Origin: Pseudoxanthomonas daejeonensis
GTDB lineage: Bacteria; Pseudomonadota; Gammaproteobacteria; Xanthomonadales; Xanthomonadaceae
DNA length: 64,000 bases
Reading direction: 5' to 3'
Assembly: GCF_010093205.1 (NCBI RefSeq)
Contig: NZ_PDWN01000007.1
Location: 124,001 to 188,000, forward strand
This document shows positions 5,902 to 37,174 of the stretch, piece after piece; position 1 is the first letter of the stretch; the number at the start of each line of letters is the position of its first letter. A program made the translations under genes and the position numbers. The notes under the pieces were generated by a model. The model saw only the letters and a list, made by a program, of their open reading frames with translations, searched no databases and was not told the DNA's origin.

Positions 5902-6049
5902 CCGGCACTCCGAAAATCTTTCTACTGGTAGCGTTGGCTGCCTGCGGCACGGAAACCACCCGTTACCAGGCGGTCCAGCCGCAAAAGACGGGGAAGTGTA
6001 ACGGAAGCCTTAACAGGCCGACAATGGCGACGCTGCTCGGGGCTGCACA

Positions 6050-7115: not shown

Positions 7116-8588
7116 ATGACCGGGATGAAAGCCTCGCCGGACGCCCGTCCGGACGCCGCCATCGCGCCAACCGCCCCCGCCACCCTGCTCCCGCTGCCGG
7201 GCGCCGCGCCGCGCGCCATTCCGGGCGGCGCGCGCGGCAAGCTCTTCATCAAGACCCACGGCTGCCAGATGAACGAGTACGACTCGGCCAAGATGGCCGA
7301 CGTGCTTGCCGAGCACGAGGGCCTGGAGTTGACCGACGACCCGGCCGAGGCCGACGTCGTCCTGGTCAACACCTGCTCGATCCGGGAGAAGGCGCAGGAG
7401 AAGGTGTTCAGCCAGCTCGGCCGCTGGAAGGCCCTGAAGGGCAACGGCCGCGAGGTGATCATCGGCGTGGGCGGCTGCGTGGCCTCGCAGGAAGGCGAAG
7501 CCATCGTCAAGCGCGCCCCCTATGTGGACCTGGTATTCGGCCCACAGACCCTGCACCGCCTGCCCGAGCTGATCCGCGCCCGCCGCGAACAGAACCGGCC
7601 GCAGGTCGACATCAGCTTCCCGGAGATCGAGAAGTTCGACCGCCTGCCCGAGCCGCGCGCGGAAGGACCGAGCGCGTTCGTCTCGATCATGGAAGGCTGC
7701 TCCAAGTACTGCTCGTTCTGCGTGGTGCCCTACACCCGCGGCACCGAGGTCAGCCGGCCGTTCGAGGACGTGCTGGTCGAGGTGGCGCAGCTGGCCGCGC
7801 AGGGCGTGCGCGAGATCAACCTGCTGGGCCAGAACGTCAACGCCTATCGCGGCCCCATGGAAGAAGACGGTGATGGCGCCGAAGTCGCCGACCTCGGCCT
7901 GCTGATCCGCACCATCGCCCAGATCGAAGGCATCGGCCGGATCCGCTTCACCACCTCGCATCCGCTGGAGTTCTCCGACTCGCTGGTGGAGGCGTATCGA
8001 GACGTGCCGCAGCTGGCCAACTACCTGCACCTGCCCGTTCAGGCCGGCAGCGACCGGGTGCTGTCGGCGATGAAGCGCGGCTACACGGCACTGGAGTTCA
8101 AGCAGAAGATCCGCAAGCTGCGCGCGGTGCGTCCGGACATCTCGATCTCGTCGGACTTCATCGTCGGCTTTCCAGGCGAAACCGACGCGGATTTCGACAA
8201 GACCATGAAACTGATCGAGGACGTGGGCTTCGACCAGTCGTTCTCCTTCATCTATTCGCGCCGACCCGGCACCCCGGCGGCCGACCTCGAGGACGACACG
8301 CCTGATGCGGTCAAGCATGCGCGCCTGGAGCGATTGCAGGCGCACATCAACGGGCATGCGGCCGGCATCTCGCAGCGGATGGTCGGCACGGTACAGACGG
8401 TGCTGGTCGAAGGTCCGTCGAAGAAGAATCCGGACGAGCTGACCGGCAAGACCGAGAACATGCGCCCGGTGAACTTTCCCGGACACCCGCGCCTGGTGGG
8501 GCAATTCGTGGACGTGCTGGTCACCGGTGCGTTGACCAACTCGCTGCGTGGCCGGATATCCACCCGCGACGAGGCCGATCCGGCCTGA
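7116..8588 (+). CDS. miaB: tRNA-2-methylthio-N6-dimethylallyladenosine synthase MiaB
   Basis: A 490-residue radical-SAM methylthiotransferase that converts i6A37 to ms2i6A37 in tRNAs reading UNN codons. The N-terminal UPF0004 domain has cluster cysteines at about C50, C87 and C121; the radical-SAM cysteines are C195, C199 and C202 (CSKYCSFC); a TRAM domain ends the protein. About 40 residues precede the first conserved strand, longer than E. coli MiaB, so a start at 7125 is also possible. Its substrate is made by MiaA, also in this window. In many Gammaproteobacteria miaB is followed directly by phoH; here an opposite-strand exporter operon lies between. Confidence 0.96.
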
Positions 8589-29336: not shown

Positions 29337-30725
29337 CTACGGGGCGATGCCCAGTCCCGGGATCGCGCTGATGCTGTCCGGATCGAAACCGGCCAGCGCG
29401 GCGAAATGGCGGCCGCGCTCGGTGTAGTCGCGATAGGCACCGAAGCTGGGAGCACCCGGCGAAAGCAGCACCACGCCCTCGCCACCGAGCAAACCGCGCG
29501 CGCGTGACACCGCATCGGCCAGGTCGCCCGCTGCTTCCAGCGTGAAGTGCCCCGCGGCTGCGAGCGGCGCGAGCAACGCGTGGATCCGGGGCCCGTTGCC
29601 ACCCATGGTCACGACACCCAGCGGCGCCGATTCCCCCATGCGCGCGGCAAACTCCGACCAGTCCAGCCCGCGGTCGTGCCCGCCGAGCAGGATCACCACC
29701 CGGCACGCCCGGTGGCAATCCAGCGCCGCCAGGCTGGCGTGCGGGGTCGTGCTGATCGAATCATTGACCCATGCGAGCCCGTCGCGCTCGCCCAGCCACT
29801 GCAGCCGGTGCGGCAGCGGGCGGAAGTCCAGCGCTGCCGGCGCCAGCGGCGCGGCATCCACGCCCAGCGCCTCGATCGCCGCCAGCACCGCGCACAGGTT
29901 GCCGCGGTTGTGCCGGCCCGGCAGGGGCACGGCCAGGGTGTCGAAGACGAAGGCGTCGCCGCGGTAGAGCGCGTCGCCGCGCAGGTGCCAGCCGTCCTCG
30001 CGGTTGAACCAGGCGACCCGGCTTCCGGGCAGGTCCAGTGCCGCCAGGCGCGGGTCGGCCGCGTTGAGCACCGCTATGCGCGGTCGCGCCGCGATGACCA
30101 GGGCCAGCTTGTCCTCGACATAGCGCGCCTCGCTGCCGTGCCAGTCCAGGTGCTCGGGAAACAGGTTGAGCACGACCGCCACCTCCGGGCGCACGCCGCT
30201 GGCCGCCACGTCGCCGGTCTGGTAGCTGGACAGTTCGATCGCCCAGAATTCCGGCGCAGGATCTTCGGCGACCTCCAGCAGGGGCAGGCCGATGTTGCCG
30301 GCCAGCGCGGTGCGGTGCCCGCCTGCGCGCAGCAGGTGCGCCAGCAGCGAAGTGGTGGTGCTCTTGCCCTTCGTGCCGGTGACGCAGACCGTGCGCGCAT
30401 CGGGGTGCGCGGCGAACCACAACGCGGTGCCACCGATGAAGCGGGTGCCGCGCGCGGACGCGGCCAGGGCCTCGGGCCGGTACGGGCTGATGCCCGGCGA
30501 CTTCACCACCACGTCGAAGGCCGCGAGCAGGTCGGCATCCATCCGCACATCGGGCGTGAGCAGCGGGTCGCCGAGCGCAGCCGCTTCGGTCGCTTCGGCC
30601 TCGTTGCAGAACAGGGTCAGCGGCAGCGCCGGAAGCGAGCTACGCAGGGCGCGCCAGGCGGCGCGGCCCTCGCGCCCCCATCCCCACAGTGCGACGCGGC
30701 GCCCTTCAAGCTGCGAAACGCGCAC
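29337..30725 (-). CDS. murD2: UDP-N-acetylmuramoyl-L-alanine--L-glutamate ligase (MurD2)
   Basis: A 462-residue Mur ligase with Walker-type TGTKGKST (residues 116-123), [12 protein letters not shown], and the C-terminal [15 protein letters not shown] and [10 protein letters not shown] segments. In Xanthomonas the ligase in this position, next to murL, adds L-glutamate, and MurL then epimerises it, replacing the usual D-Glu-adding MurD and racemase MurI. Assignment as MurD2 and not MurD rests on the murL overlap: its first 20 bases overlap the murL 3' end. A standard murD would be expected in the dcw cluster, outside this window. Confidence 0.88.
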
Positions 30726-32094
30726 TCACCCGCTCCCATACGGCGGCAGGCACGCGATGTTCGCCGTCGATCACGAGCAGCGCATCGACCGCCAGTTCGC
30801 GCGCATCCAGCTGAGGCTGGATCTCGCGGACGAAGCGCGCCACGAGGACGTCCTCGCGCCAGTCCGCGCGCGCGGCCAGCGCGGCCATCGCCGCGCGCGA
30901 CTCGCGCCCCTCGCCCACGCACTCGAACGGCTTGTGGTCCTGGAACTCCAGCAGCGCATCGAAACCCGGCGCCTGCGAAACGTCGTCAAGCAGGTTGCGG
31001 CCGAAGATCCGCACCAGCCGCGTCTTGGGCATGAACGGCGCCAGCGCCAGGAACACGAAGTGGCATTTCGGGCACAGCCCGCACCAGCGTTGCGCGGGCT
31101 TCTCGCCGAGGATGTGGAAATTGCGGTTGCAGCTGGAAAAGTACGCGTCGTAGTGGTCGCTCTTCGTGAACTGCCGGGCTACCGCCAGTTCCGAAAGGGG
31201 TCGCAGCAGCGAGTAGTAATGCAGGTCGGCCGCGACCGTGGCTTCGACGTGCTCGCCGAATGCCCGTTCGAAGGCCCAGCCCTTGGACCACTGGTGGTTC
31301 ACCTCGCCGGTGACGGTGCCGTCGGCGGCCACGATCAGGCTGCCGTAGCTGGCCGAGCGCTCGTTGGAGAAGACCACCTGGCCGGCCCCGGTCAGCAGCG
31401 CGGCCAGCACCAGGATCGCCGAATTCACCGCGGTCACCGGGATGTGGCCGTTCCACGCACCCTGCCGGTTGATCTCGAACAGCGCTGGCGCCAGGGCGCG
31501 GCCGATGTTCAGGGTCGGCAGGCCGGTGCGTTCGGCGCAGGTGCGGATCAGCTGCGAACCGCCGATCCAGGTCACGACCTGGTCCACGCCGGCCGCGCGC
31601 AGGGCCTCGATGCTGACCAGCGAATCCTTGCCGCCGCCGATGGCGACCAGCGCGCGCGCAGCCAGGCCCAGCGCAGGCGCGGCCGATGCAGGCGCGACAG
31701 CCTCGTCGGCCAGGACGCCCACGGGGAAACGGATCCGTCCGTGCAGGTCCAGGCCGTTGCGATAGGCGAACTCGCCCAGTCCGTTGAGGTAGACCTGTTC
31801 CAGCAACGCCGCGGTTGCGGCATCGATCGCGTAACCGTCGATGCGGATCTGTTCGGGCACCGCGGCCTTGTAGTAGCTGACGCCGGCGATGAGGTGCAGC
31901 AGGCGCAACGCACGCTCGACGGCGGCTGCGCGCTGGTCGTCGAGCACGAACGGCGCACCGGGCACGGTGACGGTCTCCACCAGGTCCGGGCCATCATCGA
32001 AGGCGTAGGCGAGCTCCGCCACGCCGGTGGCGGCATCGAAGCCGCAGCGCACGAAGCGGAAGGTCCGGATGGCGTCTCGATCGAAACTGGTCAT
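30706..32094 (-). CDS. murL: UDP-N-acetylmuramoyl-L-alanyl-L-glutamate epimerase (MurL)
   Basis: A 462-residue cytosolic enzyme that inverts the terminal L-Glu of UDP-MurNAc-L-Ala-L-Glu to D-Glu in an ATP-dependent way, as characterised in Xanthomonas. Visible features are a PP-loop-like GGGKDS (residues 153-158), an [10 protein letters not shown] segment, and a cysteine cluster C338-x2-C341-x2-C344-H. The ATG at 32094 overlaps the stop of the upstream membrane gene as ATGA, and the 3' end overlaps murD2 by 20 bases, so the three should be cotranslated. The longer frame to 32457 is an artefact of high GC. Confidence 0.9.
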
Positions 32095-32588
32095 GCAATA
32101 TCCGTGGTGGAACCTGCCAGCCGTCGCAGGTAGCGACGGCCGAGCATGAAGGCGATGGCGAACGCCGGCAGCGTCCCGATCAGCAGGGCCGCGAGCGTAG
32201 CGCCGAACACGATGGAAGGCACCCAGTCCGCCAGCTCGCGAAGCGGCATGCCGGTGGTGGCGAACTGCTGGTCGAGCAAGCCGGTGAACAGCACCCAGCA
32301 GGCGACCGCGAGCGGGTACAGCAGGAGTGCCAGTAGCGTCGCGCGCAGGGCCAGGCCCGGGGTGCGCCACCGGTGTCCCGCCCTGCCCCGACGCCCGTGC
32401 CACGCGGTCACGATCCAGGCAGCACCCAGCGCAGCCAGGCCGCCGGTGGGACTCCATCGCGCACCCATGCGCAGCGCCTCGCCCAGCGGCTGCTCGAACA
32501 CGAAGCTCGAGGCGAGCAGGTATCCCAGCACCGCGACCACGATGCCGGCCAGCGTCGCCAGGGCGATGAACTCAGCCCGCGGACTCAT
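32091..32588 (-). CDS. four-helix integral membrane protein of unknown function, lysAC-murL operon
   Basis: A 165-residue protein I do not recognise. It has four hydrophobic helices at about residues 6-30, 49-62, 82-106 and 126-149, with a basic loop (HGRRGRAGHRWR) between helices 2 and 3 and a short polar tail. Its start overlaps the lysAC 3' end by 17 bases and its stop overlaps the murL ATG by four bases, so it is embedded in a cotranslated run of wall-precursor genes. No function can be given; position suggests a link to envelope precursor metabolism. Confidence 0.75.
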   Translation of the reverse strand: MSPRAEFIALATLAGIVVAVLGYLLASSFVFEQPLGEALRMGARWSPTGGLAALGAAWIVTAWHGRRGRAGHRWRTPGLALRATLLALLLYPLAVACWVLFTGLLDQQFATTGMPLRELADWVPSIVFGATLAALLIGTLPAFAIAFMLGRRYLRRLAGSTTDIA

Positions 32589-35196
32589 CGATCACGTCCT
32601 CGGCGGGCAGCTCGCGCTGGTTGTAGGTGCTGGCCATCGCGTGGCCGTAGGCGCCCGCGTCGGCGATCAGCATCACGTCGCCCGGCGCGGTGGCCGCCGG
32701 CAGGGGGCGCTGCCTGCCGAAGATGTCGCTGGATTCGCAGATCGGGCCGACGATGTCGAACATCGCCTCGGCCGCCTCGTCCAGGCGCTGCAGGTTCACG
32801 ATGTCGTGCCAGGCGTCGTACAGCGCGGGCCGCACCAGGGCGTTCATGCCCGCGTCCAGGCCTACGCGCAGCACACCATCCTTCTCGATCACCTGGGTGG
32901 CATGGGCCAGCAGCACGCCGCACTCGGCGACCAGGTAGCGGCCCGGCTCGATCACCAGCCCGAACGCCGGGTGTACCGCACGCACCTCCGCCAGGCTGGC
33001 CGCCCACGCGTCCAGGTCGAACGGCTCGTCGTCGGCGCTGTAGGGAATCGGCAAGCCGCCGCCGATGTCGAGCGTGGACACGGTGCCGATGCGGCGGGCG
33101 AAGCCGGCCAGCTCGTCGCACATCTGCCGCCAGTGGCCCGCGTTCTCCACCCCGCTGCCCAGGTGCGCATGCAGGCCGGTGATGGTGGTGCCCAGCGCGC
33201 GCGCCGCGTCGACGAACTCGTCCACGCGCTGCGCCGACAGGCCGAACTTGGAATCCTTGCCGCCGGTGTTGACCTTCTGGTGGTGGCCGTCGCCGTGGCC
33301 CAGGTCGATGCGCAGCCAGACCTGGCGGCCGCGGAACAGCTCCGGCCAGCGCCGCAGCGCCTCGACGTTGTCCACGGTGACGGTGACGCCCAGGGCGAAG
33401 CCCTGCTCGTACTCGTGCATCGGCGCGAAGCTGGGCGTGAACAGCACCCGGCGCGGATCCAGGCCCGGCACCGACGCGAACACGTGCCGGAGCTCGCCCA
33501 ACGACACGCACTCCAGGCCGAAGCCCTCGTCCACCAGTGCACGCAGGATCGCCGGGTGCGAATTTGCCTTGATCGCGTAGTAGCGCTGGTCGACGGGGGC
33601 CACCGCCTTCAGTGCGCGCGCACGCGCACGCACGGTGGGCAGGTGATAGACGTAGCGCGGCGTGCCGGCCGCGGCCATCTGCAACAGGCGCGGTCGCTCG
33701 CGATGCCACCACGGCACCGGCCGCGGCCGCACCGCGCCATCGAGCTCGCGCCAGCGCGGCCCGAAGACTTCCTTCTCCAGCACCGGCATCGCGCCACTGT
33801 CGATCAGCGCGCCGTGCAGTTCCGGCAGCAGGCCGTCGGCATCGGCCTCGTCGATCACGAAGGTCAGGTTAAGGTCGTTGGACGATTGCGAGATCATGTG
33901 CACGCGTTCGTGGCCGAAGCTCGAGAACACCTCCGACAACTTGTGCAGCAGCGAGCGCATGCCCCGGCCGACCAGCGTGATCGCCGCGCACGGAACAATC
34001 ACCTTGACCCGGCCGATCTTCTCCAGGTCGGTGGCCAGTGCGGCCAGCACGTTCTCGCTGAGCAGGTTCTCGCTCGGGTCCAGCGACACGGTGACGTTGG
34101 TCTGCGAGGTGCCGATCATGTCCACCGACAGGCCGTGCTTGCGGAACAGGGCGAACACTTCGGCCAGGTAGCCGACCTGCTGCCACATGCCGATGTCTTC
34201 CACCGACACCAGCACCACGCCGTTGCGGCGGCTGATCGCCTTGACCCCTGGCACCGTCGCCGCGCTGCGGTCGATGGTGGTGCCGGGCAGTTCCGGGCGT
34301 TCGGTGTCGAGGATCGCCATGGGCACGCCCGAATCGCGGCACGGCTTGATCGAGCGCGGATGCAGCACCTTGGCGCCGGTGGTGGTGATCTCCTGCGCCT
34401 CGGCATAGCCGAGCCGCTTGAGCAGGCGCGCGTCGGGTACTTCGCGTGGGTTGGCGCTGAACATGCCCGGCACGTCGGTCCAGATTTCCACGCGGTTGGC
34501 GCCGAGCAATGCACCGAAGTAGGCGGCCGAGGTGTCCGAACCGCCGCGCCCGAGGATCGCGGTGCCGCCCTCGGGGTGGCGTGCGATGAAACCCTGGGTG
34601 ATCAGCAGGCGCGTGGGCTGTGCATCGAAACGCGCATGCCAGGCCGCGTCGGCCTGCCACTGGCAGCTCACCGACAGCCGTCGCGACCAGTCGCTCTGGT
34701 TGGCCTGCGGCGGCAACGCGTCGAGCCAGTCGCGCGCATCGGTCCAGCCCATGTCCAGGCCCTGCGTGCGCAGGTACGCGGCACCGAGCGTGGATGACAG
34801 CAGCTCGCCCTGGCCGAGCACTTCGGCCTGCCAGTCCAGCGGCCGCGTGGCCGCGCGCGGGTCGTCGAGCAGGCCGCGCAGCGCCGCCAGGCGCGCGCCG
34901 AGCACCGCTTCGGCGTCCAGCCCGAGCTCGGCGACGAAATCCAGGTGCCTCTGCACAAGTCCTTGCACGCGCTGCGCGCTGTCGCTTGCACCATCGGCGA
35001 TGGCCGTCAGTTCGTTGGTCACGCCCGAAAGCGCGGACACCACGACCAGCACGCGCGCGCCGGTCTCTTCCGCCCGTTTTTTCGCCAGCCGGCCGATCGT
35101 GTCCCAGCGATGGCGCCGCGACACCGAGGTACCACCGAACTTGAGGACGATCCATCCGCCCGTGGCGGAGTCTTGCTTGGGCGAAGCTGGGGACAT
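32572..35196 (-). CDS. lysAC: bifunctional aspartate kinase/diaminopimelate decarboxylase
   Basis: An 874-residue fusion. Residues 1-480 are aspartokinase: VLKFGGTSV (17-25), GRGGSDTSAA (216-225), and two ACT-like regulatory segments around VVLVSVEDIGMW and AAITLVGRGM. Residues 500-874 are PLP-dependent diaminopimelate decarboxylase: K543 in YAIKANSHPA, HLGSGVENAG, and the SSDIFGRQRPLP active-site segment with no free cysteine. It thus catalyses the first step from aspartate and the last step to lysine. The fusion is typical of Xanthomonads. The ATG at 35196 is the last plausible start; the frame upstream is noncoding. Confidence 0.95.
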   Translation of the reverse strand: MSPASPKQDSATGGWIVLKFGGTSVSRRHRWDTIGRLAKKRAEETGARVLVVVSALSGVTNELTAIADGASDSAQRVQGLVQRHLDFVAELGLDAEAVLGARLAALRGLLDDPRAATRPLDWQAEVLGQGELLSSTLGAAYLRTQGLDMGWTDARDWLDALPPQANQSDWSRRLSVSCQWQADAAWHARFDAQPTRLLITQGFIARHPEGGTAILGRGGSDTSAAYFGALLGANRVEIWTDVPGMFSANPREVPDARLLKRLGYAEAQEITTTGAKVLHPRSIKPCRDSGVPMAILDTERPELPGTTIDRSAATVPGVKAISRRNGVVLVSVEDIGMWQQVGYLAEVFALFRKHGLSVDMIGTSQTNVTVSLDPSENLLSENVLAALATDLEKIGRVKVIVPCAAITLVGRGMRSLLHKLSEVFSSFGHERVHMISQSSNDLNLTFVIDEADADGLLPELHGALIDSGAMPVLEKEVFGPRWRELDGAVRPRPVPWWHRERPRLLQMAAAGTPRYVYHLPTVRARARALKAVAPVDQRYYAIKANSHPAILRALVDEGFGLECVSLGELRHVFASVPGLDPRRVLFTPSFAPMHEYEQGFALGVTVTVDNVEALRRWPELFRGRQVWLRIDLGHGDGHHQKVNTGGKDSKFGLSAQRVDEFVDAARALGTTITGLHAHLGSGVENAGHWRQMCDELAGFARRIGTVSTLDIGGGLPIPYSADDEPFDLDAWAASLAEVRAVHPAFGLVIEPGRYLVAECGVLLAHATQVIEKDGVLRVGLDAGMNALVRPALYDAWHDIVNLQRLDEAAEAMFDIVGPICESSDIFGRQRPLPAATAPGDVMLIADAGAYGHAMASTYNQRELPAEDVIDESAG

Positions 35197-35234
35197 GGAG
35201 TGCGCTGGGGGACCACCCGACCACCGGGCATGAA

Positions 35235-35260
35235 CCGTCGATTCTAAGCCGAATCGACGG
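35235..35260 (-). promoter_or_regulatory. perfect 10-6-10 inverted repeat in the lysAC leader
   Basis: CCGTCGATTC (35235-35244), TAAGCC, GAATCGACGG (35251-35260) is a perfect dyad starting 39 bases upstream of the lysAC ATG. On the minus strand it covers TAGAAT (35246-35241), a -10-like hexamer. It could be an operator over the promoter or an attenuator stem in the leader. I saw no lysine-riboswitch-like fold. Confidence 0.55.
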
Positions 35261-35399
35261 CCCGGAACCCGCTGCCGGCAGGCGGCGGGCACCGCCTTGG
35301 CGCGCTTCGCTGCGGCAGCCGTCGACCCGGCCCCGCGCGGGCGCCACCGCGGCTCCATACTTCGCCCCTGCCACGTGCACTCCCGCCAGGATTCCGCGC

Positions 35400-36263
35400 A
35401 TGCAAACCCGCCGTTACATCCAGCTCGACGTGTTCGCCCCCCGCCCCGGCGCCGGTAATCCGCTGGCGGTGGTCTACGACGCCGGCGACATCGACGATGC
35501 GGCCATGCAGGCATTCGCGGCCTGGACCAACCTGTCCGAAACCGTGTTCTTCCTGCCGCCCACCGCGGCGCAGGCCGATTACCGGATCCGCATCTTCACC
35601 CCGCGGATGGAACTGCCCTTCGCTGGCCACCCCAGCGTCGGCGCTGCCTGGGCCGCGCTCGACGCCGGCCTGGCGCGCGAACGCGACGGCCGGCTCGTGC
35701 AGGAATGTGCCGCGGGCCTGCTGCCGGTGCGGATCGACCGCGACGGCGACGACGTGCAGCCATCGGTACGCAGCCCGCAGGCGCGCGTCCGCGAAGACGT
35801 GGCCGCGCCCGCCTGGCTGGTTGCCGACACCGTCTGGGGCGCCGCGCGCGGCGCGCTTGCCCCGGCGCTCTGGAACAACGGCCCGGACTGGTGGCTGCTG
35901 GAGCTGGCCGACGAGGCCGCTGTGCGCGGCCTGCGGCCGGATCTCACCGCCATCGCCGGCCTGCCCGGCAGCGGCAAGCTGGCCGTATTCGCGCGCGGCG
36001 AAAGCGACTCGGACCTGGTGGTTCGCGCATTCGCTCCCGCGGTCGGCATCGCCGAGGACCCGGCAACCGGCAGCGTCAACGCCAGCATCGCCGCCCTGCT
36101 GCACCGGCATGGGCGGTTGCCGGGCCGGGGTCGCCGCTACATCGCCAACCAGGGCCGCGAGATCGGCCGCGATGCGCGGCTGGCGCTGGAAGTCGACGAC
36201 GAGGACGGCGTCTGGGTCGGCGGCCGGGTGCACGCGGTGATCCGTGGCACGGTGGACTGGTAA
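35400..36263 (+). CDS. PhzF family isomerase, first of a tandem pair
   Basis: A 287-residue PhzF/YddE-type protein of the diaminopimelate-epimerase fold. The conserved QLDVFAPRPGAGNPLAVV opening, the catalytic Glu in LSETVFFLPP, FAGHPSVGAAWAAL and EDPATGSVNASIAALL are present. Family members are isomerases; few substrates are known. It is divergent from lysAC and 32 bases upstream of a close paralogue. No phenazine genes are nearby, so a role in phenazine synthesis is not supported. Confidence 0.9.
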   Translation: MQTRRYIQLDVFAPRPGAGNPLAVVYDAGDIDDAAMQAFAAWTNLSETVFFLPPTAAQADYRIRIFTPRMELPFAGHPSVGAAWAALDAGLARERDGRLVQECAAGLLPVRIDRDGDDVQPSVRSPQARVREDVAAPAWLVADTVWGAARGALAPALWNNGPDWWLLELADEAAVRGLRPDLTAIAGLPGSGKLAVFARGESDSDLVVRAFAPAVGIAEDPATGSVNASIAALLHRHGRLPGRGRRYIANQGREIGRDARLALEVDDEDGVWVGGRVHAVIRGTVDW

Positions 36264-36295
36264 CCTCGGCCGCCTCCCCCGACAGGATCGTCGCC

Positions 36296-37174
36296 ATGGC
36301 CACGCGCCCCTTCGTCCAGGTGGACGTGTTCGCCGACCGTCCCGGCGCCGGAAATCCGCTGGCGGTGGTGCTTGAAGCCGCCGGCCTGGACGACGCGACG
36401 ATGCAGGCGATCGCCCGCTGGACCCGGCTGCCGGAAACCACCTTCGTATTCCCGCCGACGCGGCCTGGCGCCAGTTACGGCATCCGCATGTTCAGCCCCA
36501 AGCGCGAAGTCCCCTTCGCCGGCCACCCCAGCGTCGGCACCGCGCACGTGGTGCTGGATGCAGGGATCGCCGAAGCGCAGGACGGCATGCTCCTGCAGGA
36601 AGGCATCGCCGGCCTGCTGCCGTTGCGGGTCGACGCATCCGGCGGCGTGCGCCGGATCGCCATCCGCACGCCGCGCTCGCGCCTGGTGGAGACCGCCGAT
36701 GGCCGCGGCTCGCGCATGACAGAAGCCCTGGACTGGCTGCCACTGGGCGAACTGCCGCCGGCGCTGATGGACGGCGGCCGTCGCTGGTGGCTCGCCGAAG
36801 CACGCGACGAGGCCACCCTGCGCAACGCCATGCCCGACTGGGAAGCGATCGCCGCCCTGGCGCGGGCCACCGAAAGCATGGGCGTGCTCGCCTTCGCCCG
36901 CTGCACGGGCGGCGACTACCAGGTCGCCGCGCGCGCGTTCGTCGGCGGTCCGGCGATGTTCGAGGATGCCGCCTCCGGGGCGGCCAACGCCACGCTGGCC
37001 GCGTGGCTGGCGCAGCGCGATGCGCTGCCGGGAAACGACGGCCGCTACCGGGTCAGCCAGGGCCGCGAAGTCGGCTACGACGCCCGCCTGGAAATGCAGG
37101 TGGATGGAGAAGGCGAAGTCTGGTCGGGTGGCCGCGTGGTGAGCGTGGTCCGCGGCACGATCGACTGGCCGTAG
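36296..37174 (+). CDS. PhzF family isomerase, second of a tandem pair
   Basis: A 292-residue paralogue of the upstream gene, with QVDVFADRPGAGNPLAVV, catalytic Glu in LPETTFVFPP, FAGHPSVGTAHVVL and a GxxxANATLAAWLA stretch in place of GSVNASIAALL. The shared block GAGNPLAVV and matching length show tandem duplication, but they have diverged in the middle. The start codon lies 32 bases past the first copy's stop, so they are likely cotranscribed. Confidence 0.9.
   Translation: MATRPFVQVDVFADRPGAGNPLAVVLEAAGLDDATMQAIARWTRLPETTFVFPPTRPGASYGIRMFSPKREVPFAGHPSVGTAHVVLDAGIAEAQDGMLLQEGIAGLLPLRVDASGGVRRIAIRTPRSRLVETADGRGSRMTEALDWLPLGELPPALMDGGRRWWLAEARDEATLRNAMPDWEAIAALARATESMGVLAFARCTGGDYQVAARAFVGGPAMFEDAASGAANATLAAWLAQRDALPGNDGRYRVSQGREVGYDARLEMQVDGEGEVWSGGRVVSVVRGTIDWP

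Follow-up and report, generated by a model that had tools for sequence, protein, structure and literature searches.

The window analyzed here is a 64,000-nucleotide stretch of the Pseudoxanthomonas daejeonensis genome (contig NZ_PDWN01000007.1, positions 124,001–188,000; genome G000 in our set). Its minus strand carries four overlapping genes, lysAC, orf3, murL and murD2, which form an operon containing the only route detected in this genome that would put D-glutamate (D-Glu) into peptidoglycan, as judged from orthology and specificity residues. We regard the explanation as a whole, namely an overlapping lysAC-orf3-murL-murD2 operon, the only detected D-Glu route and a QueC-like MurL, as highly probable. 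The features are as follows.

29337–30725, minus strand: murD2 (TIGR01087; specificity residues; position inside the MurD2 clade)
30706–32094, minus strand: murL (NF041275; QueC/QatC-like predicted fold; QueC profile match)
31063–31131, minus strand: MurL C322 ... C338-G-x-C341-P-K-C344, proposed zinc site (alignment to QueC zinc cysteines)
31621–31638, minus strand: MurL GGGKDS, PP-loop-like motif, residues 153–158 (invariant across the MurL alignment)
32091–32588, minus strand: orf3, a 165-residue predicted membrane protein (gene call; counterparts in the corresponding position of Pseudoxanthomonas and Xanthomonas loci)
32572–35196, minus strand: lysAC, bifunctional aspartate kinase/diaminopimelate decarboxylase, the first gene of the operon (NF006515; domains)
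35197–35399, unstranded: intergenic region between divergent genes, where the operon promoter is presumed to lie (from position only)

Layout of the operon

The four overlapping minus-strand genes described in a first-pass annotation were returned with the same ends by a gene caller, the overlaps being 17 bases (lysAC/orf3), 4 bases (orf3/murL) and 20 bases (murL/murD2). LysAC, which starts with an ATG at 35194–35196, scores 1451 bits against a cut-off of 802 for the NF006515 fusion of aspartate kinase and diaminopimelate (DAP) decarboxylase, contains the Pfam domains AA_kinase, ACT_9 and Orn_Arg_deC, and is the sole DAP decarboxylase (LysA) over cut-off in the genome. MurL reaches 814 bits against the NF041275 cut-off of 700 (E 3e-245, with the scored start nine residues inside the gene), and MurD2 reaches 294.6 bits against 212 for TIGR01087. 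The closest named relatives of the window are Pseudoxanthomonas, with best MurL segments at most 87% identical.

The presumed promoter region, 35197–35399, contained no sigma-70-like promoter (scan total 0) and no Rfam match with E ≤1. We also considered a lysine riboswitch, or an element of another Rfam family, close to lysAC and rejected it: the two matches with E ≤1 are at other places in the window and score far below their gathering thresholds. The terminator scan gave 2 hits, no better than the 1.9 of shuffled sequence; one is a minus-strand stem of 5 pairs within orf3.

For orf3, neither NCBIfam nor Pfam gave a match. It is a predicted membrane protein, as described earlier, with 4 or 3 transmembrane segments by two crude hydropathy counts against the four helices of that description. 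The protein has RRYLRR close to its C terminus, and a similar end occurs in 23 of the 26 named loci that have an inserted open reading frame (ORF) here. These 23 orf3-type inserts all share the 4-base overlap with murL, and 22 share the 17-base overlap with lysAC (the longest start gives this overlap in 19, an inner one in 3). Outside this count are L146 and L180, which do not have an RRYLRR-like motif, and L116, from a Xanthomonas sp., where the spacer upstream of 4998 is about as long as orf3 and no ORF in it carries the end motif of orf3, so that the insert appears degraded. Named Stenotrophomonas loci have 33–98 bases in place of the insert. As a guess, orf3 might be a membrane partner for the operon.

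Linkage of murL to lysAC across the order

To place the operon, 200 genomes were drawn from the order, in families labeled f1 to f12, the window's family being f1. MurL was found in 191 of them and a LysAC fusion over cut-off in 174. Among the matches listed, the places of both genes were comparable in 129 genomes, and in 92 of these murL is linked to lysAC. Linkage is complete in f1 (36/36), f12 (33/33), f2 (3/3) and f5 (1/1), and also among the scorable genomes of f3 (8/8; 10 in all), f11 (8/8; 9 in all) and f4 (1/1; 4 in all), with f4 genome G016 linked too. Named loci are linked in 79 of 80 cases, and in the other, L139, the contig reaches 236 bases upstream of murL. The linkage set comprises 142 loci, in which certain places are represented by more than one overlapping copy.

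Elsewhere the link is found in only 2 of 18 scorable f9 genomes (34 in all), and in none of f7 (0/15; 34 in all), f8 (0/3; 33 in all), f6 (0/2) or f10 (0/1). Genes on separate contigs of a fragmented genome are no proof of distance; in G037 and G104, however, lysAC and murL share a contig and are separated by ∼1.8 and ∼0.5 million bases. Unlinking in relatives, which the first-pass annotation had named, together with a functional murI and a canonical murD elsewhere, as refuting its proposal, is not seen in the window's own family; the link is missing from the scorable genomes of f6, f7, f8 and f10 and from 16 of 18 in f9. The pathway itself was already known, and the operon is not confined to the window but conserved across a clade of its order.

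Several individual genomes depart from this layout. In G011 (f11; L058), lysAC and murL stand together and murD2 lies away from murL. In f8 loci L047 and L049, an upstream gene resembling a PmbA/TldE protease (by eye) overlaps murL, which thus has a partner other than lysAC. Finally, MurL had no match in G042, G092, G132, G157, G166, G187 and G196. Since no MurD over cut-off was found there either (three of the seven have partial MurD matches of 137–141 bits), the simplest explanation is that contigs are missing or broken.

What the link means is a separate matter. The conservation of lysAC at the operon head in a large clade argues that its regulation is likely shared with murL-murD2. It is also plausible that the operon coordinates stem-peptide positions 2 and 3, as first suggested: LysAC both supplies and drains DAP, the next stem residue, and no second DAP decarboxylase in the genome scores over cut-off, which makes the idea reasonable. 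Against coordination, lysAC still adjoins murD2 in G119, an f9 genome in which murL is gone.

The strongest alternative, to which we give a little less than an even chance, is that the lysAC link is an old neighborhood kept by inertia or by the overlapping frames, with no regulatory purpose, MurD2-MurL serving equally well when unlinked. Indeed, murL-murD2 is kept elsewhere in several families, and the persistence of lysAC beside murD2 in G119 fits such inertia. In three unlinked f9 genomes, moreover, murL-murD2 has neighbors resembling ispB and ssb (by eye), an arrangement also found in the window's family, which suggests that this place predates the link or that lysAC moved. Inertia accounts less readily for a link held throughout f1 and f12 while the hit-to-hit spacing of lysAC and murL varies from 7 to 1,198 bases, or for exact overlaps where orf3 is present. 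The conserved lysAC link poses a simple regulation question.

MurL as a proposed QueC-like enzyme

In an AlphaFold model compared with known structures, MurL has a predicted QueC/QatC-like fold of the PP-loop Rossmann type. QatC, QueC and Cap9 rank above sulfurtransferase and argininosuccinate-synthase types as matches to this fold. The GGGKDS motif, invariant in 28 of 28 MurL rows, aligns with SGGxDS of QueC, and C322, C338, C341 and C344, equally invariant (28/28), align with the QueC zinc cysteines. A profile comparison of the 28 MurL rows, of which the program retained 27, with 10 QueC-type rows gave a clear match. Our proposal is that MurL operates as a PP-loop enzyme of the QueC type, distantly related to QueC and QatC.

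Several results weigh on the other side. Foldseek with the MurL model returned no match at E ≤0.001. Sequence searches of Pfam, PADLOC and PDB linked no MurL to QueC and gave no convincing relative, and hhalign with a shallow MurL alignment against one QueC reported a 4% probability, although the same loop was aligned. The first residue of the MurL loop is G, against S in QueC. In addition, the model is weak (predicted local distance difference test, pLDDT, <50) at residues 323–340 and in other stretches with invariant residues, which makes the metal site and the active site tentative. The cysteine spacing differs as well, C(x)15CGxCPKC in MurL against C(x)8CxxCxxC in QueC; QatC itself has a zinc-motif variant, C(x)19CGxCxxRR (PMC13329287). 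PF06508 had no match up to E 10 among the 44 members of alignment A1, window MurL included, or among 10 divergent rows, and for this reason we term MurL QueC-like rather than filing it as a member of the QueC family.

MurL could instead have a PP-loop-like core from another HUP branch, of sulfurtransferase or argininosuccinate-synthase type, and not be close to QueC. This is improbable in our estimate, since QatC, QueC and Cap9 stand ahead of those branches in the fold ranking and the four MurL cysteines line up with the QueC zinc cysteines.

The Xanthomonas oryzae enzyme uses one adenosine triphosphate (ATP) per turnover, forms adenosine monophosphate (AMP) and acts only from L to D, and its discoverers proposed adenylation (PMC8788868). 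There, and in a review, MurL is described as having no known conserved domains and its mechanism is left open. In Xanthomonas, MurD2 adds L-Glu to UDP-MurNAc-L-Ala; by orthology and residues, the window MurL would invert that Glu residue, spending one ATP and releasing AMP. If MurL is QueC-like, the GGGKDS loop may adenylate the alpha-carboxylate and so lower the pKa of the alpha-proton; a base and an acid would then invert the center, and hydrolysis would free the product. The four-cysteine site would bind a structural zinc. The QueC-like assignment thus makes the MurL mechanism testable, through a carboxylate-adenylating PP-loop and a metal site.

The probable D-Glu route of the window genome

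The window genome (3.56 Mb, 37 contigs) is 100% complete. A profile search found no MurI match in it, and no D-amino-acid transaminase over cut-off, the best matches scoring 125 and 123 bits against 277. Only the window protein, among six MurD matches, exceeds the cut-off; the remaining five (20–100 bits) resemble other Mur ligases by place and score. Nor was a murD found in the dcw cluster (L064), where the frames resembling mraY and murG (names by eye) end at 7295 and start at 5961, respectively: the 1.3 kb between them holds one FtsW-like frame and has no room for murD.

The ligase itself points the same way. Residues E191 and R352 of the window MurD2 correspond to E197 and R358 of X. oryzae, and the P and F of that enzyme are present as well; these four positions are those that the review names for L-Glu recognition. 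Escherichia coli MurD, our alignment control, has D, K, A and L there (its published residue numbers are one lower than in the translated sequence). The tree places the window protein inside the MurD2 clade. The unmatched MurI and dcw murD, the E and R residues and the single MurD over cut-off agree with the first-pass description of MurD2-MurL as an alternative to MurI plus MurD, and MurD2-MurL as the likely sole D-Glu route of this genome is well supported.

Absence of MurI does leave room for another racemase, but we consider it very unlikely that one such as DapF provides free D-Glu here with MurD2-MurL secondary: chlamydial DapF has glutamate racemase activity and makes D-Glu (PMC5885031) and the genome has the two sub-cut-off transaminase-family matches, yet the one ligase that exceeds the MurD cut-off has the L-Glu residues E and R, so that free D-Glu would be without a canonical ligase.

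Apparent reversal of the pathway in one genome

MurL is widespread in the genomes examined, and MurI is rare among them. Counting only matches over cut-off (weak ones, E ≤0.001, in 57 of 200 genomes were left out), MurI occurs in 3 of 200 and 4 of 397 genomes: G119, G121, G394 and G019. Two of these four, G121 and G394, keep MurL, which weighs against the explanation favored here.

Two of the genomes belong to one genus in f9. G020 (L062) has lysAC-murL-murD2 and no MurI match. In G119 (L063, 5363–9415), lysAC is followed after 87 bases by murD2, MurL is unmatched genome-wide, and a MurI scoring 219.8 bits against a cut-off of 147 lies on a 492-kb contig (L083, 5972–6787). The two G119 stretches have matching G+C values (0.499 and 0.495), which makes contamination unlikely even though it is estimated at 3%. 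This MurI contains DSGVGG, CNT and GCTHY, which we take to be its catalytic motifs. The G119 ligase is sister to that of G020 (support 100/99, 61% identity), inside the MurD2 clade. It has K at the R358 position and FAEHLV in place of the FPEHLD of G020, and it keeps E197. Such a K occurs in 3 of 129 distinct rows longer than 400 residues (E. coli, the G019 dcw MurD and G119), the other 126 having R.

According to the review, R358K and E197D each altered MurD2 stereospecificity, and both together gave D-Glu specificity. With murL lost, MurI present and R358K, G119, a single genome, would partly retrace this laboratory-known change. G114 (L061) and G016 (L068) have D at the E197 position with murL adjacent, a misfit with a simple one-residue rule. 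Taken jointly, we think it probable that MurL is a new branch related to QueC, QatC and Cap9 and that the MurD2-MurL pair was undone in G119.

The other MurI genomes are of different kinds. In G121, MurI (L082, 5615–6442) lies among ATP-grasp, methyltransferase and glycosyltransferase-like genes with the look of polysaccharide synthesis (by eye), and perhaps makes D-Glu for a surface polymer. The MurI-like protein of G394 (L205, 3767–4564) scores 149 bits against 147 and has SNT for CNT, with S replacing the first catalytic cysteine; this genome also has an endonuclease-like ORF (by eye) in its lysAC-murL spacer (L206, 9035–9415). G019 (f8; L207, L084) was considered as a case of Xanthomonadales with canonical murD and MurI, and rejected: its dcw genes look alphaproteobacterial by eye, its best LysAC match (E 1.1e-64) is no full fusion, and it has no MurL. 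It is probably a misplaced or mixed genome, and we set it aside as an evolutionary case.

Beyond the presumed promoter region of the operon, two neighboring plus-strand genes at 35400–37174 resemble tandem PhzF-type paralogs (by eye).

Comparison with known systems

It is useful to contrast the window operon with three known systems. First, the MurD2-MurL pair of X. oryzae (XOO_1320/XOO_1319) comprises the same two enzymes, here encoded by overlapping genes; E197, R358, P433 and F435 of its MurD2 are all present in the window protein, whose genome has no detected MurI. The X. oryzae pathway papers, in the portions available, describe two genes only, whereas the window pair follows lysAC and orf3 in an operon traced over the order. 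Two leads are new, the resemblance of MurL to QueC and the situation in G119. Since MurL and MurD2 have been proposed as narrow-spectrum drug targets (PMC8788868), the fold of MurL matters.

Second, E. coli uses MurI and a dcw-encoded MurD, with D182 and K348 and with murD between mraY and ftsW, neither of which was found in the window genome. For changes in MurD stereospecificity, G119 offers a natural test. Finally, MurL shares with the QueC family (QueC, QatC and Cap9) the predicted fold. Its PP-loop-like motif and its cysteines, in the order C...CxxCxxC, resemble those of the family but depart from them in the first loop residue and in spacing, and its substrate is a nucleotide-linked peptide. 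If the assignment is true, the QueC scaffold of transfer RNA modification and anti-phage defense would extend to peptidoglycan assembly.
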